A DNA stretch of 64,000 nt from Hoeflea algicola (GTDB lineage Bacteria; Pseudomonadota; Alphaproteobacteria; Rhizobiales; Rhizobiaceae), in contig NZ_JAOVZR010000001.1 in assembly GCF_026619415.1 (NCBI RefSeq), forward strand, positions 3,394,501 through 3,458,500. Direction: 5' to 3'. The notes under the pieces are model-generated. The model worked only from the letters and a program-made list of their open reading frames with translations, did not search any database and was not told where the DNA came from. Shown here piece after piece: positions 4,305 to 64,000 of the stretch (the stretch's first letter is position 1; each line of letters starts with the position of its first letter). The translations under genes were made by a program, and so were the position numbers.

Positions 4305-4326
4305 AGCGCGTCCACAGGAGCCTTCC

Positions 4327-5466: not shown

Positions 5467-5559
5467 AGCGGTGATCAGTTGCAACCAAGAAGGAGTGATG
5501 ATTTTGCAAGAAGCGAATGTAAGAAATGATATTACTTTGAAATTGGGAAGATTTATCGA

Positions 5560-6894
5560 ATGAACACTGAAGAACTACACCGTTGGGATCTGGCCCATGT
5601 CGTCCACCCTTGGAGCTATGCTGGTCCGTCGCTGATGATCGCAAAGGCGAAGGGGACGAGGTACTGGGATGTTGATGGCAAGGAATATTTGGACGCACTA
5701 GGCGGTATCCAGAACTGCTCCGTCGGCCATAGCCGCCCCGAGTTGATTGAAGCTGCCAAGGCGCAGATGGAGCGCCTGGAATATGTACCCATGCATTGGA
5801 ACTTCACCAACGAGCCAGCGGTTCGGCTCGCCCGGACAATCGCGGAACTGGCACCAGCTGACCTGAACCAGACCTATTTCGTCAGTAGCGGTTCAGAAGC
5901 GACCGAAAGTGCGGTCAAGCTGATGCGGCGTTATCATTACCTGCGGGGCGATACTAAACGCGCGACCATTCTCTGCCTGAAGCAGGGTTATCATGGCGCG
6001 ACGATCCTCGCGACCGCTGCTACGGGTTTCGAGAATCTCCAGCAGGGTTTCGGGCCGCTTCCTGGCGGTATCAAGTTCCTCACTCCGCCGCATGTCTACC
6101 GTAGTGAGTTGTTCGGCGGCGAAGATCCAGTCGAATTCTGCATCCGACAGTTGAAGCAGGTGATCGCTGACGAGGGCGGCGATACGATCGCTGCAATAAT
6201 GGCTGAACCTGTTCTGACCGTCGGTGGTGTAATCGTACCACCTGCCGAATATTGGCCGGCAGTGTCTGAAATTTGCCGCCAGCATGGTATCCTCCTCGTC
6301 GCGGATGAAGTCGTCACCGGATTTGGTCGTACGGGGGCTTGGTTCGCCGGACCAGAACTCGGCATGTTGCCAGACGCTATCGTCTTCGGAAAGGGTGTTA
6401 GCAGTGGTCATTTTCCACTCAGCGGCGTGATCATGTCCGACACGATTGCCGAAGTGATAAAGTCGGCTCCCGACGGGCTGATGCATGGCTTCACGTATTG
6501 CGGCCATCCGGTGGGCTGCGCGGTGGCGAGCCGTAACATCGAGGTGCTTCAGGAAAACAAGCTGCTTGAGAACTCCAAGGAAGTCGGCGGCTATCTGCTG
6601 GGTACTCTGAAAGAGAAGCTCAGGGATTCTCCGATCGTCGGCGACATTCGTGGCTATGGCATGCTTCTGGCGGTTGAGCTGGTCTCCGACAAGGCGACGC
6701 GTGAGCCATTGCAGTTCAAGCGACAACTGCTTGCCGACCGCATCCGAAATGAGCATGCGGTCGTTGTTCGCAGCATCGGCGCGAACATCATCATCGCACC
6801 GCCGTTGATCCTGGGCCGCTCCGAAGCCGACACTATCGCCCACGCTCTGGAGGAGGTCATAAGCACAACCAACACTGACGGAACGAGCCTATGA
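5560..6894 (+). CDS. Class III PLP-dependent aminotransferase
   Basis: A 444-residue omega-type aminotransferase. The PLP lysine is Lys278 in VFGKGVSSGHFPLSG, Asp249 in LLVADEVVTGFGRTG binds the pyridine nitrogen, and the phosphate-binding SSGSEATESA lies at residues 109-118. Members use omega-amino acids, diamines or 4-aminobutyrate-like compounds. It is the last gene of the cluster, 93 bp behind the enolase-superfamily gene. With the amine-type importer and the amidase it suggests breakdown of an imported amine or amide. The exact substrate cannot be deduced. Confidence 0.88.
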   Translation: MNTEELHRWDLAHVVHPWSYAGPSLMIAKAKGTRYWDVDGKEYLDALGGIQNCSVGHSRPELIEAAKAQMERLEYVPMHWNFTNEPAVRLARTIAELAPADLNQTYFVSSGSEATESAVKLMRRYHYLRGDTKRATILCLKQGYHGATILATAATGFENLQQGFGPLPGGIKFLTPPHVYRSELFGGEDPVEFCIRQLKQVIADEGGDTIAAIMAEPVLTVGGVIVPPAEYWPAVSEICRQHGILLVADEVVTGFGRTGAWFAGPELGMLPDAIVFGKGVSSGHFPLSGVIMSDTIAEVIKSAPDGLMHGFTYCGHPVGCAVASRNIEVLQENKLLENSKEVGGYLLGTLKEKLRDSPIVGDIRGYGMLLAVELVSDKATREPLQFKRQLLADRIRNEHAVVVRSIGANIIIAPPLILGRSEADTIAHALEEVISTTNTDGTSL

Positions 6895-7377
6895 GACGTA
6901 TAAGACGGGTCTGACGCCGGCGTTTTTACGGTCAGTGTTCAGTGGATGGACTTGAGCCATTTACATGAGTTGAGGAACGAAACGCGGTCTCTCGCCGGGC
7001 CGCGTTTCTATTCGGGCTATGTCGCAACCTTGCTGTTACGGTTTATCTGGTATTGACGTGAGACACCGTTTGGTGCCGCCTTTAAGAAGCGCTCAATCGA
7101 TCAAGTACGATCGCACGATCTCTCAATATGTCTCGTGACAGCGCGCGGACAATATTAGTTAAGATGTGGGATTGTACATGGGGTTCGTCAGTAATCATTT
7201 TGATATTATTTACTATTTCAGTAATTTATATACAATTATGGCGGATAGGGTGGGGGTCTCTACCAAGCTGCCCGTAATCTATTGGTTCAAATGGAATCAA
7301 ATCTCAGCTTGGGTGCGTGAATGGGTGCGCGGAAAAAGTATTTACTGAAAAGTACATCGTCAATCATTACTTCCTTA
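6895..7377. other. Intergenic region, no gene seen
   Basis: From the end of the aminotransferase gene to the first IS66 copy. It contains one terminator-like hairpin (listed separately). I see no convincing coding sequence; the short frame at 7166-7348 has no ribosome site and biased, low-complexity content. Confidence 0.5.
6979..7008 (+). terminator. Hairpin, possible terminator of the catabolic operon
   Basis: Nine-base inverted repeat gaaacgcgg / ccgcgtttc with a 12-base loop, followed by ctatt. It lies about 85 bp after the aminotransferase stop. The T-run is poor, so rho-independent activity is uncertain. Confidence 0.4.
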
Positions 7378-8752
7378 GTAATTACCCACCCCCTTGCCAT
7401 GCACCACAATGTCTGAATCCATGATGATATGGATCGGACTGATTTGCAGCAGCTGAGCAAGGACGAATTGATCGAGATGGTGCTTCGGCTCCAACGGCCT
7501 TCCAAGGATTCTCGGACGTCTTCCAAGCCGCCCTCGACGGACAAGAAAGAGAAACGCGTCAACTCACGACCGGGTGGAGCCAAGCCCGGGCATGAACCCC
7601 ACAATAGGGTGCTGGCGGATTTTGCCGACATGTTTCGCGATCATGAACCGACCGCCTGCAAGAGATGCGGCCATGCGTTTTCCGGTGATGATACGATGGT
7701 GCTGGCCGGGGCCTATGACGAGATCGATATTCCTGCGATCCGTCCTCATGTCACCCGGCATCGGCGTTTTTCCTGTCATTGCCCGCAATGCGGCACGACA
7801 ACAAAAGCCACCGCACCTGCCGTGGCAACCGCAACGCCGTTCGGGCCAGGCATTCACGCGCTGGCGATCTACCTCAAGAGTTTCCATGCATTGTCTTACG
7901 AACGCCTGAGCGGTGTGTTCATGGATATCTTCGGCCTTAATGTGAGCGAGGGCGCGATCATGAACATGTTTTCCCGCTCCCGTCCGAGCTTCCAGGCCAC
8001 AGCACAGGCCGCCAAGGCCAGCCTTCGAGCCGCCCGCGTTGTCGCCAGCGACGAAACCGGTGTGCGTATCGAGGGCACAAATGCCCAACACTGGGTTTTT
8101 CATTGCAAGGATGCTGTTGTCCACCAGCCCGATTACTCCCGTGCAGCACGGGTCGTTCACGAGACCATGGGCGGCCATGTCCCCGAGGTATGGATATCTG
8201 ATCGGTATTCAGCCCAGCAATCTCACGGCCATCGACATCAAACCTGCCTTGCACATTTGGCGCGTGATACAGCCTTTGCGCTGGAACATGGCGAGGATGA
8301 TCTCCCTCTTCGCTTCCAGCTTTGGTTTGGCCGTGTGTTTGATTTCGCCAGAGCCATAAGCACATTCGCTGCGTCTACCGTCGCAAGCAAGAAGCGCAAA
8401 TTCGATAAACAGCTTGCCGGGCTTCTATGCGCCCCGACTTCGTGCGACCTGGCCCAAAAGCTCCAGGCCAAGATCGGGCGGGCCCGCGATCAGCTGCTGA
8501 CGTTTTGCGACTATCCCGGAGAAGTCGATGTCACCAACAACACATCTGAGCGAAAGCTCCGTCCATGGGTCATTCAGCGAAAGGTGACAAACGGATATCG
8601 CGCCATGTGGGCCGCCCAAGCCGAGGCGGATGTACGCACGACCATCGACACCGCCCGCCTCAAAGGCGCAAACCCCTTCCAGGTCATCGCATCCGTCCTG
8701 GCATAGGCCGGTAGAAGAACCGGAAATCACGAATTCGGGGGTGGGTAATTAC
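7378..8752 (+). mobile_element. IS66-family insertion sequence, single-ORF type, copy 1 (1375 bp)
   Basis: The ends are inverted: gtaattacccacccc at the left and ggggtgggtaattac at the right. It is flanked on both sides by the 8-bp direct repeat cttcctta (7370-7377 and 8753-8760), the duplication size typical of IS66. It contains one transposase gene and no tnpA/tnpB, as in the ISBst12-like subgroup. Two more 1375-bp copies lie at 24161-25535 and 35857-37231. Confidence 0.93.
7429..8706 (+). CDS. IS66-family transposase (single-ORF type)
   Basis: A 425-residue DDE transposase. An N-terminal coiled segment is followed by zinc-finger cysteines (CKRCGHAF at about 77-84 and CHCPQCG at about 114-120). 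The catalytic acids are probably the Asp in VASDETGVRI, the Asp in WISDRYSA and the Glu in NNTSERKLRPW. It fills almost the whole element. The encoded protein is identical to those of the other two copies. Confidence 0.93.
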   Translation: MDRTDLQQLSKDELIEMVLRLQRPSKDSRTSSKPPSTDKKEKRVNSRPGGAKPGHEPHNRVLADFADMFRDHEPTACKRCGHAFSGDDTMVLAGAYDEIDIPAIRPHVTRHRRFSCHCPQCGTTTKATAPAVATATPFGPGIHALAIYLKSFHALSYERLSGVFMDIFGLNVSEGAIMNMFSRSRPSFQATAQAAKASLRAARVVASDETGVRIEGTNAQHWVFHCKDAVVHQPDYSRAARVVHETMGGHVPEVWISDRYSAQQSHGHRHQTCLAHLARDTAFALEHGEDDLPLRFQLWFGRVFDFARAISTFAASTVASKKRKFDKQLAGLLCAPTSCDLAQKLQAKIGRARDQLLTFCDYPGEVDVTNNTSERKLRPWVIQRKVTNGYRAMWAAQAEADVRTTIDTARLKGANPFQVIASVLA

Positions 8753-24160: not shown

Positions 24161-25535
24161 GTAATTACCCACCCCCGAATTCGTGATTTCCGGTTCTTCT
24201 ACCGGCCTATGCCAGGACGGATGCGATGACCTGGAAGGGGTTTGCGCCTTTGAGGCGGGCGGTGTCGATGGTCGTGCGTACATCCGCCTCTGCTTGGGCG
24301 GCCCACATGGCGCGATATCCGTTTGTCACCTTTCGCTGAATGACCCATGGACGGAGCTTTCGCTCAGATGTGTTGTTGGTGACATCGACTTCTCCGGGAT
24401 AGTCGCAAAACGTCAGCAGCTGATCGCGGGCCCGCCCGATCTTGGCCTGGAGCTTTTGGGCCAGGTCGCACGAAGTCGGGGCGCATAGAAGCCCGGCAAG
24501 CTGTTTATCGAATTTGCGCTTCTTGCTTGCGACGGTAGACGCAGCGAATGTGCTTATGGCTCTGGCGAAATCAAACACACGGCCAAACCAAAGCTGGAAG
24601 CGAAGAGGGAGATCATCCTCGCCATGTTCCAGCGCAAAGGCTGTATCACGCGCCAAATGTGCAAGGCAGGTTTGATGTCGATGGCCGTGAGATTGCTGGG
24701 CTGAATACCGATCAGATATCCATACCTCGGGGACATGGCCGCCCATGGTCTCGTGAACGACCCGTGCTGCACGGGAGTAATCGGGCTGGTGGACAACAGC
24801 ATCCTTGCAATGAAAAACCCAGTGTTGGGCATTTGTGCCCTCGATACGCACACCGGTTTCGTCGCTGGCGACAACGCGGGCGGCTCGAAGGCTGGCCTTG
24901 GCGGCCTGTGCTGTGGCCTGGAAGCTCGGACGGGAGCGGGAAAACATGTTCATGATCGCGCCCTCGCTCACATTAAGGCCGAAGATATCCATGAACACAC
25001 CGCTCAGGCGTTCGTAAGACAATGCATGGAAACTCTTGAGGTAGATCGCCAGCGCGTGAATGCCTGGCCCGAACGGCGTTGCGGTTGCCACGGCAGGTGC
25101 GGTGGCTTTTGTTGTCGTGCCGCATTGCGGGCAATGACAGGAAAAACGCCGATGCCGGGTGACATGAGGACGGATCGCAGGAATATCGATCTCGTCATAG
25201 GCCCCGGCCAGCACCATCGTATCATCACCGGAAAACGCATGGCCGCATCTCTTGCAGGCGGTCGGTTCATGATCGCGAAACATGTCGGCAAAATCCGCCA
25301 GCACCCTATTGTGGGGTTCATGCCCGGGCTTGGCTCCACCCGGTCGTGAGTTGACGCGTTTCTCTTTCTTGTCCGTCGAGGGCGGCTTGGAAGACGTCCG
25401 AGAATCCTTGGAAGGCCGTTGGAGCCGAAGCACCATCTCGATCAATTCGTCCTTGCTCAGCTGCTGCAAATCAGTCCGATCCATATCATCATGGATTCAG
25501 ACATTGTGGTGCATGGCAAGGGGGTGGGTAATTAC
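24161..25535 (-). mobile_element. IS66-family insertion sequence, single-ORF type, copy 2 (1375 bp)
   Basis: Same inverted ends as copy 1 (gtaattacccacccc / ggggtgggtaattac), opposite orientation, with the 8-bp target duplication tggaaact at 24153-24160 and 25536-25543. Against copies 1 and 3 I find one base difference (T at 24291), silent in the transposase. Confidence 0.93.
24207..25484 (-). CDS. IS66-family transposase (copy 2)
   Basis: 425 residues, identical in protein sequence to the transposases at 7429 and 35908, with the same zinc-finger cysteines and DDE positions. One synonymous change (Ala codon, at 24291) separates it from them. Confidence 0.93.
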   Translation of the reverse strand: MDRTDLQQLSKDELIEMVLRLQRPSKDSRTSSKPPSTDKKEKRVNSRPGGAKPGHEPHNRVLADFADMFRDHEPTACKRCGHAFSGDDTMVLAGAYDEIDIPAIRPHVTRHRRFSCHCPQCGTTTKATAPAVATATPFGPGIHALAIYLKSFHALSYERLSGVFMDIFGLNVSEGAIMNMFSRSRPSFQATAQAAKASLRAARVVASDETGVRIEGTNAQHWVFHCKDAVVHQPDYSRAARVVHETMGGHVPEVWISDRYSAQQSHGHRHQTCLAHLARDTAFALEHGEDDLPLRFQLWFGRVFDFARAISTFAASTVASKKRKFDKQLAGLLCAPTSCDLAQKLQAKIGRARDQLLTFCDYPGEVDVTNNTSERKLRPWVIQRKVTNGYRAMWAAQAEADVRTTIDTARLKGANPFQVIASVLA

Positions 25536-35856: not shown

Positions 35857-37231
35857 GTAATTACCCACCCCCTTGCCATGCACCACAATGTCTGAATCCA
35901 TGATGATATGGATCGGACTGATTTGCAGCAGCTGAGCAAGGACGAATTGATCGAGATGGTGCTTCGGCTCCAACGGCCTTCCAAGGATTCTCGGACGTCT
36001 TCCAAGCCGCCCTCGACGGACAAGAAAGAGAAACGCGTCAACTCACGACCGGGTGGAGCCAAGCCCGGGCATGAACCCCACAATAGGGTGCTGGCGGATT
36101 TTGCCGACATGTTTCGCGATCATGAACCGACCGCCTGCAAGAGATGCGGCCATGCGTTTTCCGGTGATGATACGATGGTGCTGGCCGGGGCCTATGACGA
36201 GATCGATATTCCTGCGATCCGTCCTCATGTCACCCGGCATCGGCGTTTTTCCTGTCATTGCCCGCAATGCGGCACGACAACAAAAGCCACCGCACCTGCC
36301 GTGGCAACCGCAACGCCGTTCGGGCCAGGCATTCACGCGCTGGCGATCTACCTCAAGAGTTTCCATGCATTGTCTTACGAACGCCTGAGCGGTGTGTTCA
36401 TGGATATCTTCGGCCTTAATGTGAGCGAGGGCGCGATCATGAACATGTTTTCCCGCTCCCGTCCGAGCTTCCAGGCCACAGCACAGGCCGCCAAGGCCAG
36501 CCTTCGAGCCGCCCGCGTTGTCGCCAGCGACGAAACCGGTGTGCGTATCGAGGGCACAAATGCCCAACACTGGGTTTTTCATTGCAAGGATGCTGTTGTC
36601 CACCAGCCCGATTACTCCCGTGCAGCACGGGTCGTTCACGAGACCATGGGCGGCCATGTCCCCGAGGTATGGATATCTGATCGGTATTCAGCCCAGCAAT
36701 CTCACGGCCATCGACATCAAACCTGCCTTGCACATTTGGCGCGTGATACAGCCTTTGCGCTGGAACATGGCGAGGATGATCTCCCTCTTCGCTTCCAGCT
36801 TTGGTTTGGCCGTGTGTTTGATTTCGCCAGAGCCATAAGCACATTCGCTGCGTCTACCGTCGCAAGCAAGAAGCGCAAATTCGATAAACAGCTTGCCGGG
36901 CTTCTATGCGCCCCGACTTCGTGCGACCTGGCCCAAAAGCTCCAGGCCAAGATCGGGCGGGCCCGCGATCAGCTGCTGACGTTTTGCGACTATCCCGGAG
37001 AAGTCGATGTCACCAACAACACATCTGAGCGAAAGCTCCGTCCATGGGTCATTCAGCGAAAGGTGACAAACGGATATCGCGCCATGTGGGCCGCCCAAGC
37101 CGAGGCGGATGTACGCACGACCATCGACACCGCCCGCCTCAAAGGCGCAAACCCCTTCCAGGTCATCGCATCCGTCCTGGCATAGGCCGGTAGAAGAACC
37201 GGAAATCACGAATTCGGGGGTGGGTAATTAC
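35857..37231 (+). mobile_element. IS66-family insertion sequence, single-ORF type, copy 3 (1375 bp)
   Basis: Same ends as the other copies, with the 8-bp target duplication atgcatgt at 35849-35856 and 37232-37239. No difference from copy 1 found by eye. Confidence 0.93.
35908..37185 (+). CDS. IS66-family transposase (copy 3)
   Basis: 425 residues, identical to the transposases at 7429 and 24207, with intact zinc-finger cysteines and DDE residues. Confidence 0.93.
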   Translation: MDRTDLQQLSKDELIEMVLRLQRPSKDSRTSSKPPSTDKKEKRVNSRPGGAKPGHEPHNRVLADFADMFRDHEPTACKRCGHAFSGDDTMVLAGAYDEIDIPAIRPHVTRHRRFSCHCPQCGTTTKATAPAVATATPFGPGIHALAIYLKSFHALSYERLSGVFMDIFGLNVSEGAIMNMFSRSRPSFQATAQAAKASLRAARVVASDETGVRIEGTNAQHWVFHCKDAVVHQPDYSRAARVVHETMGGHVPEVWISDRYSAQQSHGHRHQTCLAHLARDTAFALEHGEDDLPLRFQLWFGRVFDFARAISTFAASTVASKKRKFDKQLAGLLCAPTSCDLAQKLQAKIGRARDQLLTFCDYPGEVDVTNNTSERKLRPWVIQRKVTNGYRAMWAAQAEADVRTTIDTARLKGANPFQVIASVLA

Positions 37232-51645: not shown

Positions 51646-52272
51646 TCAGTGATCGAGCGCAGCGTCCACGAGGACACGGGCAGCTTCGAACGCGGCTTCT
51701 ATACCCATTTCGGTAGTATCTAGCAAGTGCGCATCGTCGGCAGGACGCAATGGCGAGTCTTCGCGCTGGGAATCTGATAAATCCCTGCTAATGATGTCCC
51801 TCAAAATTTCTTCATAAGACACGTTGACCCCGTGCCGAATCGCCTCGTGATGTCTCCGGGCAGCTCGGGATTCCGGATTTGCTGTGACGAAAATCTTTAA
51901 ATCTGCATTCGGCATAATAACCGTTCCAATGTCCCGACCATCTATGATTATGTCACTCTTATTCTTAGCAAAATTCTCAATATAAGTATTTATATATCTA
52001 CGTAATAGCTTGTTCGAGGCGTATTTTGCTGCAATCTTTGCTGTTTTTTCGCTAGACAAAATCTCTTCGTCAAATTTGATTTCATCAATGTTACGCAAAG
52101 CGTCTTCAAGATCGCTGTAGTCGGAGATTACTACTTCCCCATTGCTGAGAATTAGTCCCGCCTTCCGGAAAATTTTCCCGCTATCCAAGATCGGAAAATT
52201 ATAGAATGATCCTAGTAGCTTGGCTAAAGTTCCTTTTCCGGAACCAGCCGGGCCATCAATCGCAATTTTCAT
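51646..52272 (-). CDS. cmk: Cytidylate kinase, apparently a mosaic of two origins
   Basis: 208 residues. P-loop GPAGSGKGT (residues 7-15), IIIDGRDIGTVIMPNADLKIFVTA and RDLSDSQREDSPLRPADDAHLLDTTEM give cytidylate kinase, which phosphorylates CMP and dCMP. The last third is G+C-rich and matches rhizobial Cmk closely. The first two thirds are AT-rich (aat, aaa, ata codons) and continue in composition into the AT-rich genes next door. This suggests recombination replaced the 5' part. The ATG at 52272 is 31 bp from the divergent gene at 52304. An alternative start at 52287 is possible. Confidence 0.9.
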   Translation of the reverse strand: MKIAIDGPAGSGKGTLAKLLGSFYNFPILDSGKIFRKAGLILSNGEVVISDYSDLEDALRNIDEIKFDEEILSSEKTAKIAAKYASNKLLRRYINTYIENFAKNKSDIIIDGRDIGTVIMPNADLKIFVTANPESRAARRHHEAIRHGVNVSYEEILRDIISRDLSDSQREDSPLRPADDAHLLDTTEMGIEAAFEAARVLVDAALDH

Positions 52273-52303
52273 TTTAGACGCTCGCATAGGGGAAACGGTA
52301 GCA

Positions 52304-53071
52304 ATGCTTAACAACAAGGACATAACGGAGCTTTTACAAAATGGCACCCCTCTAATTGAAGCGGCGGATGGTAATGCTCAAGAACGTTTAGAAGAGCTAG
52401 TTCAGCCGGCATCGATTGACCTAACTGTTGGTAAAATATTCATTCCTCCGGATCGGACTACAGGCGATGGCGTGAAGGAAATCAACGACCATTATCTGCT
52501 CGAACATGGAGCAACCGCCATGGTTCAAACAAGTGAAAAACTAAATATTCCCGCCGACATAGGTGGCTTGATGTTTCCGAAAAATGGGCAGTTTGCGCTT
52601 CGAGGGATAATGGTGACTAATTTTGGACATGTAGATCCCGGATATAAAGGGCATTTAAAGTACACGATTATTAATTTTGGTGCGGATCCCTATCGAATTG
52701 AAATAGGTCAAAGAATAACGTCTTTAACGTTATACCGGATGAATTCAAAGGCAGACCCAGACTGGAGTGTCATTTCAAAACACGATCCAGATAAAATGGA
52801 AGGGCACGCAAAGGTTTTAAGTAGGGATTTTCTGGATATAGAAAATAGAGTGGTTGAAATGGTAAAGACACATACAAAACAAGCTATTCAGCTTCATGAT
52901 AGCGTTCGATCGTTTTGGGTTCCACTGATGGGTCTTGTTGCGACATTTTTAATCGCCATCGTTGCGGTATTTATGCCATTTTATATGCACTTAGATAGCA
53001 AAATAGATTCTATAGTAAAACATGATTACAACAAATACAGCGTGGCTGCTCAGGAGGATTATGAAAAATGA
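52304..53071 (+). CDS. dCTP-deaminase/dUTPase-fold protein with a membrane segment
   Basis: 255 residues, AT-rich. Residues 34-41 (QPASIDLT) and 98-146 (ALRGIMVTNFGHVDPGYKGHLKYTIINFGADPYRIEIGQRITSLTLYRM) fit the Dcd/Dut fold. Asp111 (VDPGYKG) corresponds to the conserved Asp, but the position of the catalytic Glu of Dcd (E138 in E. coli) appears to be Thr121. Residues 204-226 are a hydrophobic segment, followed by a 29-residue tail. The ATG at 52304 has agggga upstream. Its stop overlaps the kinase start (ATGA). May act on dCTP or dUTP, or sense a nucleotide. Confidence 0.75.
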   Translation: MLNNKDITELLQNGTPLIEAADGNAQERLEELVQPASIDLTVGKIFIPPDRTTGDGVKEINDHYLLEHGATAMVQTSEKLNIPADIGGLMFPKNGQFALRGIMVTNFGHVDPGYKGHLKYTIINFGADPYRIEIGQRITSLTLYRMNSKADPDWSVISKHDPDKMEGHAKVLSRDFLDIENRVVEMVKTHTKQAIQLHDSVRSFWVPLMGLVATFLIAIVAVFMPFYMHLDSKIDSIVKHDYNKYSVAAQEDYEK

Positions 53072-53679
53072 TAATTGTTTCAGGTAATATTGCAACAGGA
53101 AAATCAACTTTATCTAGAATATTATCAAATAGTATGAACTATGATGTATTATATGAAGATGTAAGCGGAAATGAATTTATTTCAGATTTTTATGAAGATA
53201 TGAGTCGTTGGGCAATGCATTCTCAATTGTATTTTTTGTATTCAAGAGCTCGAATGTTAAAGAATAAAAATAATAATACAAGAAAGGTAATTCTGGATAG
53301 ATCAATATCAGAGGATTTTTTTGTATTTAGTCAAAATCTATTGAATAGGGGGTTAATGTCACCCAGGGAATTTAAATTAGTTCAAGAGTGTTATGATAAC
53401 ATAAAAGATATAGAGAGTGATGTGGATCTATGTGTTTATTTGTATGATGAACCTGAATATATTATGAATAAAGTAATAGAGAGAGACAATGTATATGAGA
53501 AAGGAATAGATATAAATTATATAGAATCTCTCAACAGACTGTATGAGCAATGGATGGAAACAAGGCCATACAAAAATATAATAAAATTAAGAACGAGCGA
53601 TATAGATTTTAGAAAAAACGATGCCGTAGATATTATTATTAATAAAATAACAGAAAATATAAACACAATAAATATTTAG
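53068..53679 (+). CDS. Deoxynucleoside kinase family protein
   Basis: 203 residues, very AT-rich. P-loop GNIATGKST (residues 6-14), the DRS motif LDRSISEDFFVF (about 73-84, ERS in most members) and a lid/substrate region ERDNVYEKGIDINYIESLNRLYEQWM place it with dCK/dGK/TK2-type kinases, which phosphorylate deoxynucleosides. It is coupled to the preceding gene by a 4-base overlap, so the two products are probably made together. Host composition differs strongly, suggesting transfer from a low-G+C source. Confidence 0.82.
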   Translation: MIIVSGNIATGKSTLSRILSNSMNYDVLYEDVSGNEFISDFYEDMSRWAMHSQLYFLYSRARMLKNKNNNTRKVILDRSISEDFFVFSQNLLNRGLMSPREFKLVQECYDNIKDIESDVDLCVYLYDEPEYIMNKVIERDNVYEKGIDINYIESLNRLYEQWMETRPYKNIIKLRTSDIDFRKNDAVDIIINKITENINTINI

Positions 53680-53844
53680 TTTTATATAGTTATTATTACT
53701 GATGAATATCGTTGTGATAACAATATATATTTGTATGTTAATTCGTATGGGGAAAAATTATTAAACTTGTCTCTACTAGATTTAATAGAATAGATTTTGA
53801 AGGATACTTCGGCATCGGCTATTGGCGATTATATAATCGTCAGT

Positions 53845-54471
53845 CTAGATCTGGCTATAGAGCCGCACCAGTTCGGCCATTGCCGCATCACCATCTTCGG
53901 TCAGGCCGGCATGAACGCCCTTGCGGTCGGCCTCCGAGCGGTTCTGGCTCATCTTCCATTTGCCGGTCAATGTGTCGACCGTGATGTCGATGCCGACAAT
54001 CCCGCGCAATTGCGCCGCCACGTAAGCTTCCGGTGCATCATCGACCTTCCAGGGCTCGGCCCGGTTTGCCTCGTGCCGGTCGGTCAATTCGCCCACCTGT
54101 TGGCGCAGCCTGTCGCTGCCGGCCTCGATCCGCGCCGATCCACGGGCCTGCACCATGGCGTAGTTCCAGGTCGGAACCACCTTGCCGTGCTCGGATTTCG
54201 CGCGGTACCACGACGGCGTGATGTAGCTGTCGACGCCCTGGAACACCACCAGCACGCTGGCCCCGTCCTCAATATGGCGCCATTGCCCGTTGGCGCGGGA
54301 CATATGCGTGCGCAGCCGGGTGATGCCGTCATCGACGGAAACCAGAAACGGCAGCGGATTGGCTTGAAGGTCATCCGCGGACGATGAAATCAGCAGCCCC
54401 AGCGGATGCGCGGTAATCAGCGCCCGCATCACGTCCTCATCGGGTTCGGCAAAATGCGGCGGCTGGTACAT
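53845..54471 (-). CDS. FMN-binding negative transcriptional regulator, PaiB family
   Basis: 208 residues starting MYQPPHFAEPD, as in PaiB-type proteins. ITAHPLGLLIS, ANPLPFLV, LRTHMSRANGQWR and SYITPSWY are family marks of the flavin-binding split barrel. In Bacillus PaiB represses sporulation and protease genes; the role in rhizobia is unclear. Native composition. Its stop is 165 bp from the AT-rich kinase gene. The upstream isomerase gene ends 19 bp from its start. Confidence 0.87.
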   Translation of the reverse strand: MYQPPHFAEPDEDVMRALITAHPLGLLISSSADDLQANPLPFLVSVDDGITRLRTHMSRANGQWRHIEDGASVLVVFQGVDSYITPSWYRAKSEHGKVVPTWNYAMVQARGSARIEAGSDRLRQQVGELTDRHEANRAEPWKVDDAPEAYVAAQLRGIVGIDITVDTLTGKWKMSQNRSEADRKGVHAGLTEDGDAAMAELVRLYSQI

Positions 54472-57308: not shown

Positions 57309-57384
57309 GGGGCCATAGCTCAGCTGGGAGAGCGCCTGCATGGCATGCAGGAGGTCAGCGGTTCGATCCCGCTTGGCTCCACCA
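57309..57384 (+). tRNA. tRNA-Ala (anticodon GGC)
   Basis: 76 bases including CCA. Acceptor GGGGCCA pairs with TGGCTCC, D arm AGCTCAGCTGGGAGAGC, anticodon stem-loop CCTGC-ATGGCAT-GCAGG gives GGC, T arm GGTTCGATCC. The serine recombinase gene on the opposite strand ends inside it, marking it as the integration site of the right-hand element. Confidence 0.95.
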
Positions 57385-58918
57385 TCCTTCTTTCACCACC
57401 TGCAATCGATGCTAACACCTTGAATGGTAAGGTGGTTTTTGGTGTTCTAAGTCCATTATTTCGGCAATACGCCAAACGCTCAGAAAACGTCAATCTCAGC
57501 ACTAATTTTTGAAGAGCGGGATCGCCGGTTTGCCAGAGTTTCCAAGGGTTTGAGATGAAGTTCAGGGCGTGTTCTAACACATGCCCGATAGTGGTCTTTG
57601 GCATGGTGCCATTTTCGAGCTTATCTTGCGCCGCAAGCTTCTGCTGCTCCAGTGTCGCGATCTTTCTCTCATAGGCTTTGATCGCTGCCGGAGAGTCGCT
57701 TTCCACCAAGCGATCCAGAAAGCCATCAATCTGCGCTTCAATGGCGCTGATATCCTTTTGCAGCACCTGCCGCCACGATTTAGCCTGCGACAGCCGTTGC
57801 GCCCAAGCTCGCTCAATCATGACTTTTAGCAGCTCGACCAGTGACGGAATTGGCTGGAGGGTTTTCAGCAGTGATTCGAAGTCTCCTTCGATGGCTGAAC
57901 GGCGGATCGATTTGCCGTAGTGCCCACAGCCTTTGTGGTGGCACAGATAATAGGGATGGTGCTGCTTCTTGCCCTTTGACCAGCAAGCGGTCAGCGGTTG
58001 ACCGCATCCTGCACAAGCGACAAAGCCGCGCAGCGGGAAATCGATGGCGTTATCTTTACGTGCCGGTGCATAGGCACCGACCTTTAATCGCTCCTGGTTC
58101 TTGAGATAGGTCTGGTAGCTGATCAGCCCTTCATGCCGCCCTTTGCGAAGGCTGACATTCCAGTTCGGCGCTTCGACATATCCGGCATAGACGGGGCGTT
58201 CCAGCAGCTCCTTGACCCTTGAGCTATGCACCTCGCCTTTATGATCCTTCGGATAGAGCGGGTGTGCTTCAAGGAACCGTTGCAGCTCAACCTGGGACTG
58301 GAACCGTCCCGCAGCAAAGCCTTCCAGCGCCTCTTTGATGATGGAGGCGTGTGGTTCGTCCGGAACCAGTTGCTTGCCGCCATAGGATGATTTCGCGTAT
58401 CGGTAGCCTATGGGCGCTTTGAAGACCCATAAGCCCTGCTCTACGCGGGCTTTCATTTTCTGGACAACCTGCCGTCCGTTTTGTTCCCGTTCCAGCTCGC
58501 CTTGCGCCGCCAGCATGGTTTCGATGAACTTGCCTTCCGGCGTGTCTTCAAAGCGGAAGTTCAGGCATTCACGGGTTGCACCGCGCGCCGCCATAATGCG
58601 GCGGAGTTTCAGATGGAACTCGGTATCGCGCGCATAGCGCTTGAGGTCGTCGAAGATGACGATGTAATTTTCATGCGGCTTGGCATCGAGATACGCCAGC
58701 AACGCCACCATGCCCGGACGATTGATAAAATCACCGCCGCCCGACACATCATCGGGAAACACCGCATCCACAACGTAGCCGCGCTGCGCTGCGAATTCGC
58801 GGCAGCGGTGCTCCTGGCTTTCCAAGCCGCTTCCATCCGCAACCTGCCTCTTGGATGAGACGCGGCAGTAGATCACTGCCTTTTGCGGTTGAATGGCTTT
58901 GACGGATTGACGATTCAT
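57320..58918 (-). CDS. Large serine recombinase (integrase)
   Basis: 532 residues. Resolvase domain at the N-terminus (AVIYCRVSSKRQ with catalytic Ser21, then DLKRYARDTEFHLKLRRI), a recombinase domain (APIGYRYAKSSYGGKQLVPD), a zinc ribbon (CAGCGQPL, CHHKGCGHYG) and a long coiled coil. The last 21 residues (MVEPSGIEPLTSCMPC...) are encoded by the antisense of tRNA-Ala. Integrates the element at the tRNA-Ala 3' end. Its ATG overlaps the stop of the gene upstream. Confidence 0.93.
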   Translation of the reverse strand: MNRQSVKAIQPQKAVIYCRVSSKRQVADGSGLESQEHRCREFAAQRGYVVDAVFPDDVSGGGDFINRPGMVALLAYLDAKPHENYIVIFDDLKRYARDTEFHLKLRRIMAARGATRECLNFRFEDTPEGKFIETMLAAQGELEREQNGRQVVQKMKARVEQGLWVFKAPIGYRYAKSSYGGKQLVPDEPHASIIKEALEGFAAGRFQSQVELQRFLEAHPLYPKDHKGEVHSSRVKELLERPVYAGYVEAPNWNVSLRKGRHEGLISYQTYLKNQERLKVGAYAPARKDNAIDFPLRGFVACAGCGQPLTACWSKGKKQHHPYYLCHHKGCGHYGKSIRRSAIEGDFESLLKTLQPIPSLVELLKVMIERAWAQRLSQAKSWRQVLQKDISAIEAQIDGFLDRLVESDSPAAIKAYERKIATLEQQKLAAQDKLENGTMPKTTIGHVLEHALNFISNPWKLWQTGDPALQKLVLRLTFSERLAYCRNNGLRTPKTTLPFKVLASIAGGERRMVEPSGIEPLTSCMPCRRSPS

Positions 58919-59271
58919 GACTCCTCTCTTTCTGCCGGATGAGAGGGCGTCTCGTCGGCGCGGGGTTCTAAATTTGTTTGTGGAATATCTTTATCCAAGG
59001 ATAGCAGATCATCAGGAAGCCGGAGAGCAGAATTTGCATTTTGCTCACACCCTGTCTGGACCGGCGCAATGCCAAAACCCAGATCAACGAATGACACGGC
59101 AATCGACCAAAGGGTTTCGATAAACTCGCGCTTTTGATCATCGCTGAGGTCAGACTCATCCAGATAGGTGCCGTAAAACTCCCAATCGATGGACAGAGCC
59201 GGTGCGCAATCAGTCGGCGCACCGTCAGGCTGCAAGCCCTCATCAGAATAAGTATTGGTCTTGTCAGCCAT
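58915..59271 (-). CDS. Small acidic protein coupled to the serine recombinase
   Basis: 118 residues, acidic (LSIDWEFYGTYLDESDLSDDQKREFIETLWSIAVSFVDLGFG). The ATG at 59271 follows gaaggagac; its stop overlaps the recombinase start (ATGA). This gene pair is often seen with such recombinases. A role in controlling recombination direction is possible but not shown. Confidence 0.65.
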   Translation of the reverse strand: MADKTNTYSDEGLQPDGAPTDCAPALSIDWEFYGTYLDESDLSDDQKREFIETLWSIAVSFVDLGFGIAPVQTGCEQNANSALRLPDDLLSLDKDIPQTNLEPRADETPSHPAEREES

Positions 59272-59485
59272 TTTTTGTCTCCTTCTCCCGAACCACAAAT
59301 GGGTGGCGGGTTTGCTGCAATTCTCCTTTTCTGTCTTTCACCATGAAAGAACATATAGCGAACATACTAGGATATAAATCCTATTTCACCAAGAAGAATC
59401 TCTGTAACATTGTTGCGTTTTTCGAGTTTGTTCTTAGAACAACAGCGCAGAGACTGGACCGGCAACGACAAGGGTAATTGGGGTA

Positions 59486-60292
59486 ATGGGGATTGAGCCA
59501 AGCAAGGGGCGGGTTTTAGAACTTCCAAAAGCGACAAAGGAAGAGATCAAGGCGATCAGCCGCGTCGTGTCCGCAATTATGGCGGCGCGTGTGATGAGCT
59601 TTGAGAAGATATATGCTGCGGCTGTGGGGTCAATGGAAGGCTATGGACTTGAAGATAAGAGCAACCTTGGAAAAGGCTCAATAGCTCAATGGAAAGCCGC
59701 AAAATTCTACCGCTGGATTGTCGAGAACCATTTAGCGCTCGGCTGTCAGATCGCACCAGAAGTCTTTGACCCGTCCTTGTTGACACGATGGTCCGATTTG
59801 GTTCGCACAAAAGCGATTTATGGGTGTTTCACACACCGCATTGTCGGCGCGCTAGGATTGACCGAGCGCAGCAGCAAACAGCCCATCGCCGAACTCCCAA
59901 TCCGGTCAACAGATCAATTTTATTTCGAACTAGTGAGTAACCTGGATGGAATGGCGATCGCGCTTGAACAATCCAACGGGCAAATTTATCCGTTCTCGCT
60001 TCATGAGAACCAGGTTTCGCTTACTCTGCCGGTTAAGGTGGGATCGCAGTTCGTGCCTCGCCTACCGGGCACAGATAATGCGCCCGACCTATTGTCAGAC
60101 ACCGACGACCAAGGATTGCGTTGCTACTACATCCTGATTGCGACGCCCGAACTCATCGAAGAATGTTCCAAAGGTTTGAGTGAGGGGCACCCTATTTCCG
60201 CTGAGAAGCTTGACCAGATCGCCCTCGCCTTCAACGAGGCGAAACCTGGCAGCTTCGAGTTACACCGGCTCAATGTGGTATTCACGGCTTAG
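59486..60292 (+). CDS. Hypothetical protein (268 aa)
   Basis: Not recognised. Helical N-terminal half (KEEIKAISRVVSAIMAARVMSFEKIYAAAVGSMEGY), mixed second half. The ATG lies behind gggtaattggggta, a poor ribosome site. It overlaps the convergent metallopeptidase-like gene by 11 bp, so the two may be functionally linked, but they are on opposite strands. Confidence 0.55.
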   Translation: MGIEPSKGRVLELPKATKEEIKAISRVVSAIMAARVMSFEKIYAAAVGSMEGYGLEDKSNLGKGSIAQWKAAKFYRWIVENHLALGCQIAPEVFDPSLLTRWSDLVRTKAIYGCFTHRIVGALGLTERSSKQPIAELPIRSTDQFYFELVSNLDGMAIALEQSNGQIYPFSLHENQVSLTLPVKVGSQFVPRLPGTDNAPDLLSDTDDQGLRCYYILIATPELIEECSKGLSEGHPISAEKLDQIALAFNEAKPGSFELHRLNVVFTA

Positions 60293-61373
60293 TGGTCCTC
60301 ATATATCGAAGCCCCTTAAGTTCATCAGTTACACTCTGGCGACGACGCTCATCTAATTGAAACTGTTCCAGCCGATCTTCGTCCATCCAACCAGAACGAA
60401 GTCGGGTGTCTATTGATTTCAATTGGCTCATCGCTGAGTGGTTCATCAAGACATATTCCGACCTCGACCGACCAAGAGTCGCAGAGGCCCACTGATACAA
60501 ATATCGTAGGCGCATACTGGGGACGGGGTGGCTCTTGAACCCTGCGCCAGCGTTTTTTGGCCTTGTGGACGCGAGAAGCCAGAGCATTAAATATGCGGCA
60601 AACAAGATCAATTCCACGCGTTGATCTTCAGGTATGCCTTTGGAAAAAAATCCGAAGTCACACTCTCCGGATAATTCAATTCTTAGGCACGAGTCTAGTG
60701 CCGAAATATCGGCTTCCTGCTCCAGGTAATGCAGCAAAGACGGTTCTATCTTACCTTGCCCAGAAGAGCGTTGCGTCAGGTCTAATTCATAGATGCGCGA
60801 GTTCCGGAGTTTCTTATTTTCTGTCAGGTAATCGATGTGCCCAAGAAAACAGTGTGCAAACTCATGCAAAAGGACAAACCGGAACATGACGCATGAGACA
60901 TAAAGTGACAGGCGACGACGTTCCGGGTCTTCAGGAAGCTCAGGTAAATCCTCCGATATCATCCGAAACTCTTCGAGCTCATCACGGTGCTGTACTTGTT
61001 CCAAAATCGTCACAAGGAATTGACCACTGCCGTACTTACCTTGGTAAATGAAAGGCTGGCAAAAGCACAGATCGGCGTAATGAACAATTTTCTTGGCAAG
61101 CGAGTTCGATACGCCAACGAAGTGGTGCTCGCCGTTCCGTGCAGCAAATGCGTTGGGTTCGTCGTCGACCGTGATTCCCGGAGCTATTGAAAGGCCGCCC
61201 GGGTACCTCTCGCTTCTTAAAATCGGAAACTTTTCATGTAGCCCAATGAAGCTTCGCATAGACAGGTTTTCGATCCCATCATATTTTTTGTCCCAGGCGA
61301 GACACTCGAATCCAAGTGACTGGCGTGAATATCGTTCGAAGTGGTTTTGGTGATCGTCTGCAATGAGTTTCAA
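60282..61373 (-). CDS. Zinc metallopeptidase-like protein (HExxH)
   Basis: 363 residues. HEFAH at 170-174 (FVLLHEFAHCFLGH) followed by HYLEQEADISALDS at 215-228, where Glu218 or Glu220 and Asp222 could complete the site, as in M48/M78-like peptidases. A hydrophobic stretch (VELILFAAYLMLWLLAS) follows. No signal peptide, so cytoplasmic. ImmA/IrrE-type peptidases cleave repressors on mobile elements; a defence-linked protease is another option. Located 152 bp from the HerA gene, same strand. Confidence 0.65.
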   Translation of the reverse strand: MKLIADDHQNHFERYSRQSLGFECLAWDKKYDGIENLSMRSFIGLHEKFPILRSERYPGGLSIAPGITVDDEPNAFAARNGEHHFVGVSNSLAKKIVHYADLCFCQPFIYQGKYGSGQFLVTILEQVQHRDELEEFRMISEDLPELPEDPERRRLSLYVSCVMFRFVLLHEFAHCFLGHIDYLTENKKLRNSRIYELDLTQRSSGQGKIEPSLLHYLEQEADISALDSCLRIELSGECDFGFFSKGIPEDQRVELILFAAYLMLWLLASTRPKNAGAGFKSHPVPSMRLRYLYQWASATLGRSRSEYVLMNHSAMSQLKSIDTRLRSGWMDEDRLEQFQLDERRRQSVTDELKGLRYMRTTKP

Positions 61374-61525
61374 GATGGATCTCTTGATGGAAACAACAAA
61401 GAATCAGTCCTTGATAAAAAAGATACGCAAGATGTGTGCTGTATAACAGCACCATCATGGCAAGGGGGTCGCTGCGCACCCCCGTTGCATCCCCCGAGCC
61501 GTGACGCATTTCCGGCATTGAGCCT

Positions 61526-63355
61526 TCATCCGCCATCGAAACGTTCCGCCGTTTCATCACTGGTCAGGGCAGTGTCCCCGACACCCAGACCAAGGTCGTT
61601 CCGCCCTTTGGAACCCGACCCCTCCGGCGGATCAATTTCTGCCAATTTAATGCCGTCACCCGCTTTCCGATTCCGCCAGTAGTCGTTGTAGTCTGGACCC
61701 CGAGAATCTGGAGGACTGCTGGGTTCATGTATGTTGATTGGCATTGGCGCAGGCAAATCTGGTCCTACTATGATTGCCTCTCCTGGTGCCAGGGTTGGGA
61801 TAAACATCGCTGCATTCTTATCCAGATCACCGCAGGCACGTTCCACAGCATTTCGGTCTTCGTCGTTAGTCAGCCGATGGACGATGAGAGTTCCAAGCTG
61901 ACTTAACACGTCAGGAGGAATGTCCCTGGGTCGCTGGGTCGCCATCAGTGATGTTAAGCCGTATTTCCGCCCTTCTTTGGCAATTACTCCGAACGCTTCA
62001 AGCCTGACACTCGCGTACTCATCGCCGATGGTTCGTCCTAAGAACTGATGCGCCTCATCAAGAGCCGCTATCACAGGCTTTGAGCGAAAGACACCGCTCC
62101 TAGCTTCGCCAAGCAAATACCGACCAATAACATTGAGAAGTATCTCTCTCGTATTGTGCTCAAAATGCACACCCTTAAATGATAACCGGATGATGTCATC
62201 ATCCTCTTTTTCGAAAAAATCTGTAAGTACATCAACGAGAGACTGTCCCTCTTTATCAAAAAGGCAAGATAGTTGTGGGGAGCTGACATGTGTTCGAATT
62301 CGAGCGATAAGAGTCTCGCAATGAGCCAACGATGCATCTGAGCCACCCCAGTTCTGGAAATTCGCCCCTGGACCGTTTGACCAAACGCATTCGTTGGAAA
62401 CCTGTTCGGCAAGTGCTCCAATGTTAAAATCGCATAAAGGCGAGTTTATCAGCTCTTTCTGCTCCTCCAGTGCTGCAAAAAAAGGCGCGCGTGGTTGTCC
62501 AGCCTTCAACACCGCCCCGCCCGGTGTGCGACTGATACCCGCAGGCATTTTGCCGCGATAAATGCGTACCAATTTCAACGACCTTATGGCTTCTCGGAGC
62601 TTTGGACCTTGAGACTGCCCTGAGGGACGGAAGAGCGTGAAGAGGTCGTCTTCCGTCATCTGCGTGTAGGGAAAATGGACCCGCTGCGTTTTCTCTTCAC
62701 CCGATTGGAACGCATAATGGCGGCTAACGGATGACAATTCTGAAAATTCGCCAGTCGGATCAAAAAGTATGCATTTTCCACCGACCTTCTTAATCTCATC
62801 CAGTAAATGTGAAATTGTCCAACTCTTTCCCCCTCCTGTCGCGCCGAAAACACCACAATGTCGCCCGAAGAGAGTTTCCGGAGGCAACTTGAGATGCACT
62901 CCATTCCCCATACTGAGCGTCCCTAGATCAATTGTGATCTGATCGTCTTTTGCCAATGCGTTAGATGCGAGCTCTCCGAAAACGTCAGGTTGCGCGAGAT
63001 ACACCGAATCTCCCACACGAGGATGAGCGCGAAGACCGCGGACAAGCTTCCTCTTGCGCTGGTCGACGGAGGCAAGTAACTGAATGCGGCCGATAGGGTG
63101 CGGTTCTGGGGAAGCCCCCATCGCGGGCTCCACTGTTAATCTCTCCGCGTCAGGTAACTTTACTTCAGTTATTCTCCCCAGAAGCTTCACGCTCTCGCAA
63201 TCAACAAATACGAAATCCCCGACTGCTCCGCGCGCCATGGACCGTGTTTCAGGTCGTGCAGTGGCATGAGGAAGATTAGCTTGTGCAGATGACGCCGTGA
63301 CAGCGGTGATGGTACCCACATAGCGGAGTGAATCGACCAAACTAGGAGCAGACAT
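61526..63355 (-). CDS. HerA-type ATPase of a SIR2-HerA defence pair
   Basis: 609 residues. An N-terminal HAS-barrel-like part (about 1-110) precedes Walker A GVFGATGGGKSWT (169-180). The Walker B acid pair is ALDEAHQFLG, and late MATQRPRDIPPDVLSQLGT is typical of HerA/VirB4-like motors. The start overlaps the SIR2 stop (TGATG). Known SIR2-HerA systems form a complex that depletes NAD+ on phage infection. Confidence 0.88.
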   Translation of the reverse strand: MSAPSLVDSLRYVGTITAVTASSAQANLPHATARPETRSMARGAVGDFVFVDCESVKLLGRITEVKLPDAERLTVEPAMGASPEPHPIGRIQLLASVDQRKRKLVRGLRAHPRVGDSVYLAQPDVFGELASNALAKDDQITIDLGTLSMGNGVHLKLPPETLFGRHCGVFGATGGGKSWTISHLLDEIKKVGGKCILFDPTGEFSELSSVSRHYAFQSGEEKTQRVHFPYTQMTEDDLFTLFRPSGQSQGPKLREAIRSLKLVRIYRGKMPAGISRTPGGAVLKAGQPRAPFFAALEEQKELINSPLCDFNIGALAEQVSNECVWSNGPGANFQNWGGSDASLAHCETLIARIRTHVSSPQLSCLFDKEGQSLVDVLTDFFEKEDDDIIRLSFKGVHFEHNTREILLNVIGRYLLGEARSGVFRSKPVIAALDEAHQFLGRTIGDEYASVRLEAFGVIAKEGRKYGLTSLMATQRPRDIPPDVLSQLGTLIVHRLTNDEDRNAVERACGDLDKNAAMFIPTLAPGEAIIVGPDLPAPMPINIHEPSSPPDSRGPDYNDYWRNRKAGDGIKLAEIDPPEGSGSKGRNDLGLGVGDTALTSDETAERFDGG

Positions 63356-64000
63356 CAGTGCCCTCCACCGGAAGGCTCATGAAGTACCCTTATTCGGTCG
63401 GCGTGCCGCTCGCGCTCTGTCTGCGCGACAAGATCAGGAAGCGCCTGCGCAAGATCGTCGAAACGACCGTTCATCAGCGTAATCCGTTGATCGCCAATAT
63501 CACACAAGCGTTTCAATTTACTGAAATAAGTGCTGGATTTCGGTTGCGCAGCAGCCTCTGTTGACAGCGAATGTTCAGCCTTTTCTAGCTCTTCATCTGC
63601 AAGGAAAGCCACGTCGCACACAACCAAACGAAGCGACATGTTAGCTTCAATTGCCGCAAATATGGGCCTCGTAATATGATCATCATTGAAGCCAAAACCA
63701 GATATTATTAGCGTAGTGTCCGGGGCGCGCATTTCATTTTGCAAAGCGGACATCATATCGAGATATGGAGATTCAAAGGCTTCCTGATATTTGCTATCTC
63801 GAGGATAAATTAGTGTAGCTCTCCCATCCATAGGGTCTTTTGAGCGGATCAGATCCATGCCATTGCGACGCCAATCAATGGAGCCATGCAGCTTATGTAG
63901 ATGGAAGACATTCTCGATGTAATCGGGTCCGTCGGTGCCGACTTCACGGCGAACAATATCATGCGCAAAATGACCACGATCATACACCTGGGGCATTGTG
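63355..64000 (-). CDS. SIR2-family NADase, C-terminal part (partial)
   Basis: At least 214 residues; the start lies beyond the window. HLHKLHGSIDWRR and LIISGFGFNDDHITRPIFAAIEA are typical of SIR2-like defence proteins. Overlaps the HerA gene by one base. The N-terminal NAD-binding part cannot be seen, so activity cannot be judged. Confidence 0.85.
   Translation of the reverse strand, partial: TMPQVYDRGHFAHDIVRREVGTDGPDYIENVFHLHKLHGSIDWRRNGMDLIRSKDPMDGRATLIYPRDSKYQEAFESPYLDMMSALQNEMRAPDTTLIISGFGFNDDHITRPIFAAIEANMSLRLVVCDVAFLADEELEKAEHSLSTEAAAQPKSSTYFSKLKRLCDIGDQRITLMNGRFDDLAQALPDLVAQTERERHADRIRVLHEPSGGGH

Follow-up and report, generated by a model that had tools for sequence, protein, structure and literature searches.

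A tail-anchored dCTP-deaminase-fold protein coupled to deoxynucleotide enzymes in Hoeflea algicola and in distant relatives: a candidate nucleotide-sensing module

Introduction

Bacterial dCTP deaminases reportedly acting against phages were described by Tal et al. and by Hsueh et al. in 2022. The gene pair considered here consists of a tail-anchored protein of the dCTP-deaminase/dUTPase fold (Dcd-TM) and a deoxynucleoside kinase (dNK). It is found in the window, i.e. the whole stretch of 64,000 nucleotides of Hoeflea algicola DNA that was analysed (contig NZ_JAOVZR010000001.1). With the anti-phage dCTP deaminases, AvcID among them, Dcd-TM shares the deoxynucleotide theme, but it differs by the missing deaminase Glu, the membrane segment, the two-gene form and the lack of a PADLOC match. 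From the housekeeping dCTP deaminase (E. coli Dcd; TIGR02274) it differs by a Thr in the column of Glu138 and by a score below the cut-off, and it adds an extra helix, a membrane segment, a tail and a coupled kinase or synthase.

Sections of the article on the Clover system describe a defence in which dTTP is read under restraint by a partner-made nucleotide (PMC12265719). As far as these sections go, the likeness lies in the two-gene logic, in the reading of a dNTP level and in a partner enzyme that makes the controlling nucleotide. Clover is, however, composed of an HD-domain dGTPase and a nucleotidyltransferase (PMC12265719), neither of which is above cut-off in the window pair: no HD domain was detected in Dcd-TM or dNK at E values up to 1, and dNK gave only a sub-threshold NTP_transf_2 trace (12.1 vs 21 bits).

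The main-text sections of the DefensePredictor study report a thymidylate synthase domain validated in defence, as well as thymidylate synthase / 5-hmdU kinase systems, and predict, without validation, a dUTPase domain beside MazG and MazG-C types (PMC13092281). They cite Burroughs et al. 2015 for nucleotide-centred conflict systems (PMC13092281), a work that may describe part of the Dcd-TM module. No tail-anchored Dcd/ThyX or Dcd/dNK pair is named in these sections, and the word ThyX is absent from the main text (PMC13092281). Literature searches of open articles likewise gave, among the titles and abstract openings listed, no description of either pair.

Results

The pair lies in an acquired segment at cmk

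The features of the locus are collected in Table 1. G+C is 0.41 in the Dcd-TM gene and 0.27 in the dNK gene, as against 0.60-0.65 in the surrounding core genes. Among 12 congeners searched, the cmk locus was readable in 10, none of which carries an insert at this site; the native neighbour directly beside cmk is the FMN-binding gene in nine and a DSBA gene in one. Scored in 20-residue blocks against the congeners, codons 1-180 of cmk show 14-62 % identity, whereas the congeners share 65-89 % among themselves; codons 181-208 show 71-87 %, the same as any congener. Judged by this comparison, codons 1 to ~180 are foreign and the last ~28 native. The G+C contrast, the insert-free congeners and the cmk chimera therefore indicate that a single segment of ~2.1 kb was acquired. 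The preliminary description, which had seen AT-rich DNA in a G+C-rich core, was thus right, and this DNA is foreign. Recombination within cmk, a gene that is probably essential, may have brought the island in.

Table 1. Coordinates of the features discussed (positions in the window unless a locus is named).
Feature	Coordinates	Strand	Remark
cmk (CMP/dCMP kinase), chimeric	51646..52272	-	divergent from Dcd-TM, 31 bp between starts
Acquired AT-rich segment (5' part of cmk, Dcd-TM, dNK)	51735..53840	.	both borders approximate
Dcd-TM, tail-anchored dCTP-deaminase/dUTPase-fold protein, 255 aa	52304..53071	+	
Dcd-fold core, residues 1-152 of Dcd-TM	52304..52759	+	
HVDPGY motif, residues 109-114 of Dcd-TM	52628..52645	+	alignment
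Thr121 codon, column of catalytic Glu138 of E. coli Dcd	52664..52666	+	alignment
Hydrophobic segment, residues 206-224 of Dcd-TM	52919..52975	+	probable single transmembrane helix; 31 residues after it
dNK, deoxynucleoside kinase, 203 aa	53068..53679	+	P-loop GNIATGKS and DRS motif
FMN-binding protein gene	53845..54471	-	native right border
SIR2-HerA island	57309-63999		tRNA-Ala overlapped by serine recombinase, then HerA, then SIR2
ThyA-type synthase beside Dcd-TM	L138 2283-3251		
ThyA-type synthase beside Dcd-TM	L140 2112-2963		
ThyA-type synthase beside Dcd-TM	L043 6843-7685		

The distribution is patchy, with a Dcd-TM match at E 1e-10 in 2 of 18 genomes of the genus, the window genome included. 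The second is Hoeflea sp. NORP7, in which Dcd-TM is found at another chromosomal place and is coupled to ThyX. Elsewhere in the window, three ORFs of 425 aa (7429-8706, 24207-25484 and 35908-37185) with the shared start MDRTDLQQLSKDEL look transposase-like by eye; their region is lower in G+C and ends near tRNA-Ser.

Dcd-TM has lost the deaminase glutamate

Among the best 50 rows of each fold search with Dcd-TM, all are Dcd/Dut folds, spanning residues ~1-168. Together with the fold prediction this agrees with the fold first proposed for the 255-residue protein, and the single hydrophobic segment noticed near its C-terminus was found again at residues 206-224. All 13 of the other full-length clade A proteins that were examined likewise have one such segment; their tail beyond it counts 52-76 residues vs 31 in the window protein.

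Thirty-three tail-anchored proteins were aligned, of which 23 belong to clade A (counting the window protein, two proteins cut by contig ends, one broken fragment and near-identical proviral copies), six to clade B and four to clade C. Glu is found in none of the 33 at the column of Glu138 (E. coli Dcd numbering) vs 4/4 Dcd controls; what stands there instead is Thr, Tyr, Cys, Val, Ser, Ala or Phe. All 33 retain the conserved Asp (Asp128 in E. coli Dcd, Asp111 of HVDPGY in the window protein), the catalytic Asp of dUTPase motif 3. The motif TNxGH[VI]DPG, present in 22 of the 23 clade A proteins (the exception, L055, reads VNLGHIDPG), and TNPGHVDPGY of the window protein are closer to dUTPase motif 3 than to the Dcd loop. 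The motif-2 Arg of dUTPases is replaced in 18/23 clade A proteins, and the C-terminal glycine-rich motif 5 is absent from Dcd-TM, the chain continuing into a helix instead.

Judged by its aligned residues, Dcd-TM therefore falls outside the dCTP deaminases, having lost the catalytic Glu. It scores 59.9 bits against TIGR02274 (Dcd; curated cut-off 92.8) and 38.1 bits against TIGR00576 (Dut; curated cut-off 102.55), and PADLOC models matched it with 0 families at E up to 1. Two candidate identities were rejected. Depletion of dCTP, which had been part of the first guess about the pair, is unsupported because the deaminase Glu is missing in 33/33 aligned proteins and PADLOC gave no match at E 1. 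The alternative of an ordinary housekeeping dUTPase fails on the TIGR00576 score and the absent motif 5, and an ordinary Dut is encoded elsewhere in the window genome.

In a tree of the Dcd domain the branches are long, and two Dut rows stand beside the window row, near ThyX-linked proteins. Because of the long branches and the intruding Dut rows, this tree can neither establish clade A as a single group nor refute it.

The window partner is a deoxynucleoside kinase

As first noted, the start of the 203-residue kinase overlaps the Dcd-TM stop by ATGA. Both frames are intact, and dNK matches PF01712 with 142.8 bits (Pfam cut-off 27). A Shine-Dalgarno-like AGGAGG lies within the 3' end of Dcd-TM, ahead of dNK. 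By its motifs dNK looks like the bacterial dAK/dGK type, a purine type that does not make dTMP.

The preliminary description had proposed to look for the same pair elsewhere. No second Dcd-TM/dNK pair was found in viral contigs searched with the window Dcd-TM or with dNK, and searches of phage and plasmid proteins with dNK returned distant dNKs only (<60 % identity), the neighbourhood being examined for one annotated match. Within these searches, the outcome first named as refuting the module, homologues never found together, thus applies to the Dcd-like protein with dNK; for a Dcd-like protein with a dNMP-forming enzyme it does not, as described below. On an Acinetobacter plasmid (L089), copies of ISVsa3 flank a thymidylate synthase gene, a DHFR resistance gene and, following both, a relative of the window dNK.

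The recurrent partner of Dcd-TM is thymidylate synthase

Contigs of one genome per species (84,980 species) were scanned with a four-row alignment as query. This resulted in 17 loci, from Acidobacteria, Verrucomicrobia, Mycobacterium, Alpha-, Beta- and Gammaproteobacteria and Bacteroidales, three of which are cut at contig ends (L047, L060, L061). A ThyX-like gene lies within ~2.1 kb of Dcd-TM in 14/14 readable loci, representing five phyla, and directly 3' on the same strand in 11 of them. PF02511 matches ThyX at 13 of the 14, L054 being outside this search. The Dcd-TM frame is broken in L054 and L058.

Viral contigs yielded eight loci: four readable P2-like proviral ones, all with the order integrase, Dcd-TM, ThyX; one phage-like contig, in which Dcd-TM adjoins a ThyA-type synthase and a PfkB kinase; and three that are cut. 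Among 5,426 complete E. coli genomes one matched (70 % DNA identity). Its pair, WP_053891068.1 and WP_053891067.1, lies behind a prophage integrase and is annotated as 'dCTP deaminase domain-containing protein' and thyX, with both genes given as full length; 'P2-like' is for this prophage a reading of the annotation and the neighbouring ORFs.

By one test applied to all loci, a synthase was found within 1.5 kb in 20/23 readable clade A and C loci (excluding the window, the clade B loci and L141, which lies at a contig end) vs 0/30 ordinary Dcd/Dut loci; the query set of this control contained the partner proteins of 4 tested loci, the control loci hold at most 1.5 kb per side, and 3 of the 30 (L004, L005, L040) gave no ORF by the motif filter. 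Within 4 kb the count rises to 22/23. Four-base overlaps join 6 of 14 measured same-strand Dcd-TM/ThyX pairs (ATGA in four, GTGA in two). The partner enzymes retain their own active-site residues, and the RHR loop of the partner ThyX is one residue longer than in standard housekeeping ThyX (two references, too few to build on). The recurrent partner of Dcd-TM is thus a thymidylate synthase and not dNK. In the window genome, which has no PF02511 match for ThyX, dNK occupies the ThyX place of the other loci.

Four Acidobacteria loci (L045, L048, L049, L050) additionally hold a NUDIX-like gene and one of ~300-340 aa, perhaps as a four-gene form of the module. Pfam searches of L048 gave NUDIX (PF00293) above the cut-off and MazG below it, the latter in the 338-aa gene; this gene had no meaningful PDB match, and its counterpart in L050 no Pfam match. 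L049 carries, just upstream of Dcd-TM (3874-7005), an ORF that by eye resembles a recombinase, together with an antirestriction gene of the ArdC type (PF08401, PF18818).

ThyA-type partners and clade B cassettes

A Dcd-TM-type match at E 1e-15 was obtained in 7/297 genomes of the window's family, the window genome included. In clade C, a ThyA-type synthase (PF00303) is found directly 3' with a 4-base overlap at L138 and L140, and a dCMP deaminase adjoins at L140 and L141; L139 has neither. All three ThyA-type partners examined (two of clade C, one phage-like) keep the catalytic Cys and have Asp in place of the housekeeping Asn, which is present in 4/4 readable housekeeping ThyA proteins, that of the window genome included (five reference loci were fetched; L152, without the motif, was not counted). 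This Asn to Asp exchange moves a ThyA-type enzyme from dUMP to dCMP, as in the dCMP hydroxymethylase of T4. Because of the Asp, and on this background, the ThyA-type partners are probably not dTMP makers; by their residues they are possible dCMP methyl- or hydroxymethyltransferases. The idea of dTMP as a product common to all partners is weakened by this exchange and by the purine-type look of the kinase.

The clade B loci (L006, L016, L091, L092, L142, L143) show HMUDK_hel, MazG_C, ImmA/IrrE, TS-like or AcpS-like genes. 'TS-like' is here a label given by eye, since there was no Pfam match and, for the one protein searched, no PDB match. HMUDK_hel genes at two loci and MazG_C genes at two loci recall the DefensePredictor systems, and the clade B cassettes are perhaps the dUTPase systems predicted there.

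Host genomes mostly have another synthase

Another Thy1 or ThyA match was found in 13/13 searched genomes with a Dcd-TM/ThyX pair. It is clear in eight (ThyA in seven, standard ThyX in one), and judging from these matches the ThyX of the pair is mostly not the housekeeping enzyme. For the remaining five (G833-G836, G843), what was matched is a divergent Thy1 protein, which in four of them has two Thy1 stretches within 470-590 residues; the ThyX of the pair may therefore be needed for growth there. The 530-590 aa proteins with two Thy1 stretches in Acidobacteria genomes (L078, L079, L081, L082) have a DGQERSTRY motif and are unlike standard ThyX.

Restriction genes and prophages surround some pairs

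At 4/11 scanned genome loci (L046, L051, L052, L056) the pair has restriction or CARF-type genes as neighbours, a call based on 10 chosen proteins and L052. In the E. coli prophage a type I restriction-modification system is ~7 kb away. At E 1e-10, PADLOC matched 99 families in 104 neighbour ORFs (11 loci) vs 4 in 108 control ORFs, family counts being inflated because one methyltransferase matches many models. The control ORFs came from nine stretches of 9 of the 11 genomes, 108 of 109 being used (one ORF of 1,873 residues was left out). For the neighbours 104 of 105 were used; leaving out the 2,315-residue ORF of L055 reduced the 12 chosen loci to 11, and L047, L048, L054, L060 and L061 were outside the choice. 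Neither Dcd-TM nor its ThyX partner is represented among the PADLOC models. An HsdR-like gene, recognised by eye, is near the pair of L044.

Within the acquired segment of the window there is no defence neighbour. SIR2-HerA (PADLOC: HerA 2e-171; SIR2 2.4e-41, the gene being cut by the window end), 8 kb away with core genes between, belongs to a separate serine-recombinase island at tRNA-Ala from 57.3 kb. The defence hotspot of P2 adjoins the portal gene, according to sections of its description (PMC9519451); the proviral Dcd-TM pairs instead lie behind the integrase.

Discussion

We propose, tentatively and with a probability of about 0.43, that the pair is an accessory, horizontally moved and most likely anti-phage module of a nucleotide-sensing kind. 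According to this model, Dcd-TM, without the deaminase Glu, would be tied to the inner membrane by its one C-terminal helix, probably as a trimer, as the fold suggests. Its conserved pocket (TNxGH[VI]DPG) would bind a pyrimidine deoxynucleotide rather than deaminate it. The coupled gene product, which is ThyX in most relatives, of the ThyA type in others and dNK in the window, would make or modify a deoxynucleoside monophosphate and would thereby set the level of the ligand, or produce an unusual one. Phage infection would shift the pool and with it the ligand state of Dcd-TM, upon which the membrane part would act on the envelope and either arrest the growth of the infected cell or kill it, and so would give protection. 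The switch could work in either direction, the ligand holding Dcd-TM off or turning it on.

A sensor and effector with a partner-set ligand fits since a pyrimidine-dNTP fold without the Glu, a probable anchor, coupling to a dNMP enzyme and mobile carriage occur together. What the data show of it is the predicted fold, the hydrophobic tail, the lost catalytic residues, the pairing, the transfer, and the restriction or prophage setting at some loci; ligand, trimer, switch direction, membrane effect and protection are inferred. Another synthase match in 13/13 host genomes, the PADLOC excess among neighbour ORFs and Clover as a precedent for a defence that reads dTTP also count in its favour. The nucleotide-pool defence or sensing module originally suggested for the window therefore stays plausible, given the relatives in prophages and the restriction or CARF neighbours at 4/11 genome loci, although without its dCTP depletion. 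Counted against it are the uniqueness of the window dNK pair in the searches made and the conserved Asp, with which hydrolase activity is possible; P2-like proviruses, moreover, may carry thyX for their own use. Further points against it are the divergent Thy1 protein as other synthase match in 5/13 hosts, defence neighbours at no more than 4/11 scanned loci and none in the segment of the window, the lack of PADLOC models, the integrase position away from the P2 hotspot, and a dNK that looks unlike a dTMP maker.

That Asp leads to a different view, in which Dcd-TM is an active membrane-tied enzyme after all, either dUTPase-like or a new hydrolase of pyrimidine nucleotides. It and its partner would act in series and between them drain or rebuild a dNTP pool (depletion, not sensing). 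The catalytic Asp of motif 3 kept in 33/33 proteins, the resemblance of TNPGHVDPGY to this motif rather than to the Dcd loop, the very conserved pocket and the intact active sites of the partners are all in keeping with it. Replacement of the motif-2 Arg in 18/23 clade A proteins, a helix where the glycine-rich C-terminal motif should be and scores below the NCBIfam cut-offs for both Dcd and Dut nevertheless make such a hydrolase unlikely. We give the same low weight to a metabolic role, in which the cassette adds dTMP or salvage capacity at the membrane for host or prophage and has no part in defence. The partners (ThyX, ThyA type, dNK, NUDIX, dCMP deaminase) are indeed enzymes of nucleotide metabolism, thyX is common in phages (1068 phage records match), and 5/13 host genomes are without another clear ThyA or standard ThyX. 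Yet a clear other synthase exists in 8/13 hosts, the ThyA-type partners with Asp for Asn (3/3 vs 0/4 housekeeping proteins) probably do not make dTMP if the exchange has its usual meaning, distribution is patchy (2/18 genomes of the genus), and the membrane anchor is left unexplained.

The window pair taken by itself might also be a broken relative of the ThyX-type module, dNK being an unrelated passenger joined to Dcd-TM by recombination. The absence of another Dcd-TM/dNK pair from the searches made, the difference in G+C between the genes (0.27 for dNK vs 0.41) and the divergent window protein, unplaced in the Dcd-domain tree, argue for this. Against it, both frames are intact, the ATGA overlap is at the position where, in six other pairs, ThyX overlaps by 4 bases, and the AGGAGG lies inside the Dcd-TM end, so that we consider an accidental joining a little less probable even than the hydrolase or the metabolic role.

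If the sensing module is extended to all partners, a new class of nucleotide-signal defence would emerge. A deoxynucleotide signal would be made or held by a dedicated pyrimidine-nucleotide enzyme, be it ThyX, a dCMP-type ThyA homologue or dNK. Its reader, a pseudo-dCTP-deaminase anchored in the membrane, would open or disrupt that membrane once phage infection alters the signal; the partners would be swapped as a module, the window presenting the kinase version. We regard so general a formulation as doubtful, though less so than the alternatives above.

Were the sensing module confirmed, bacterial immunity would count the Dcd/dUTPase fold, as a membrane-bound receptor, among its nucleotide-reading folds, and the additional thymidylate synthases of prophages and islands, which are usually ascribed to dTMP supply, would gain a second meaning. 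The E. coli prophage version, with both genes annotated as full length, makes the question open to immediate testing. Even as metabolism alone, the coupling of a tail-anchored Dcd fold to ThyX across five phyla calls for an explanation.
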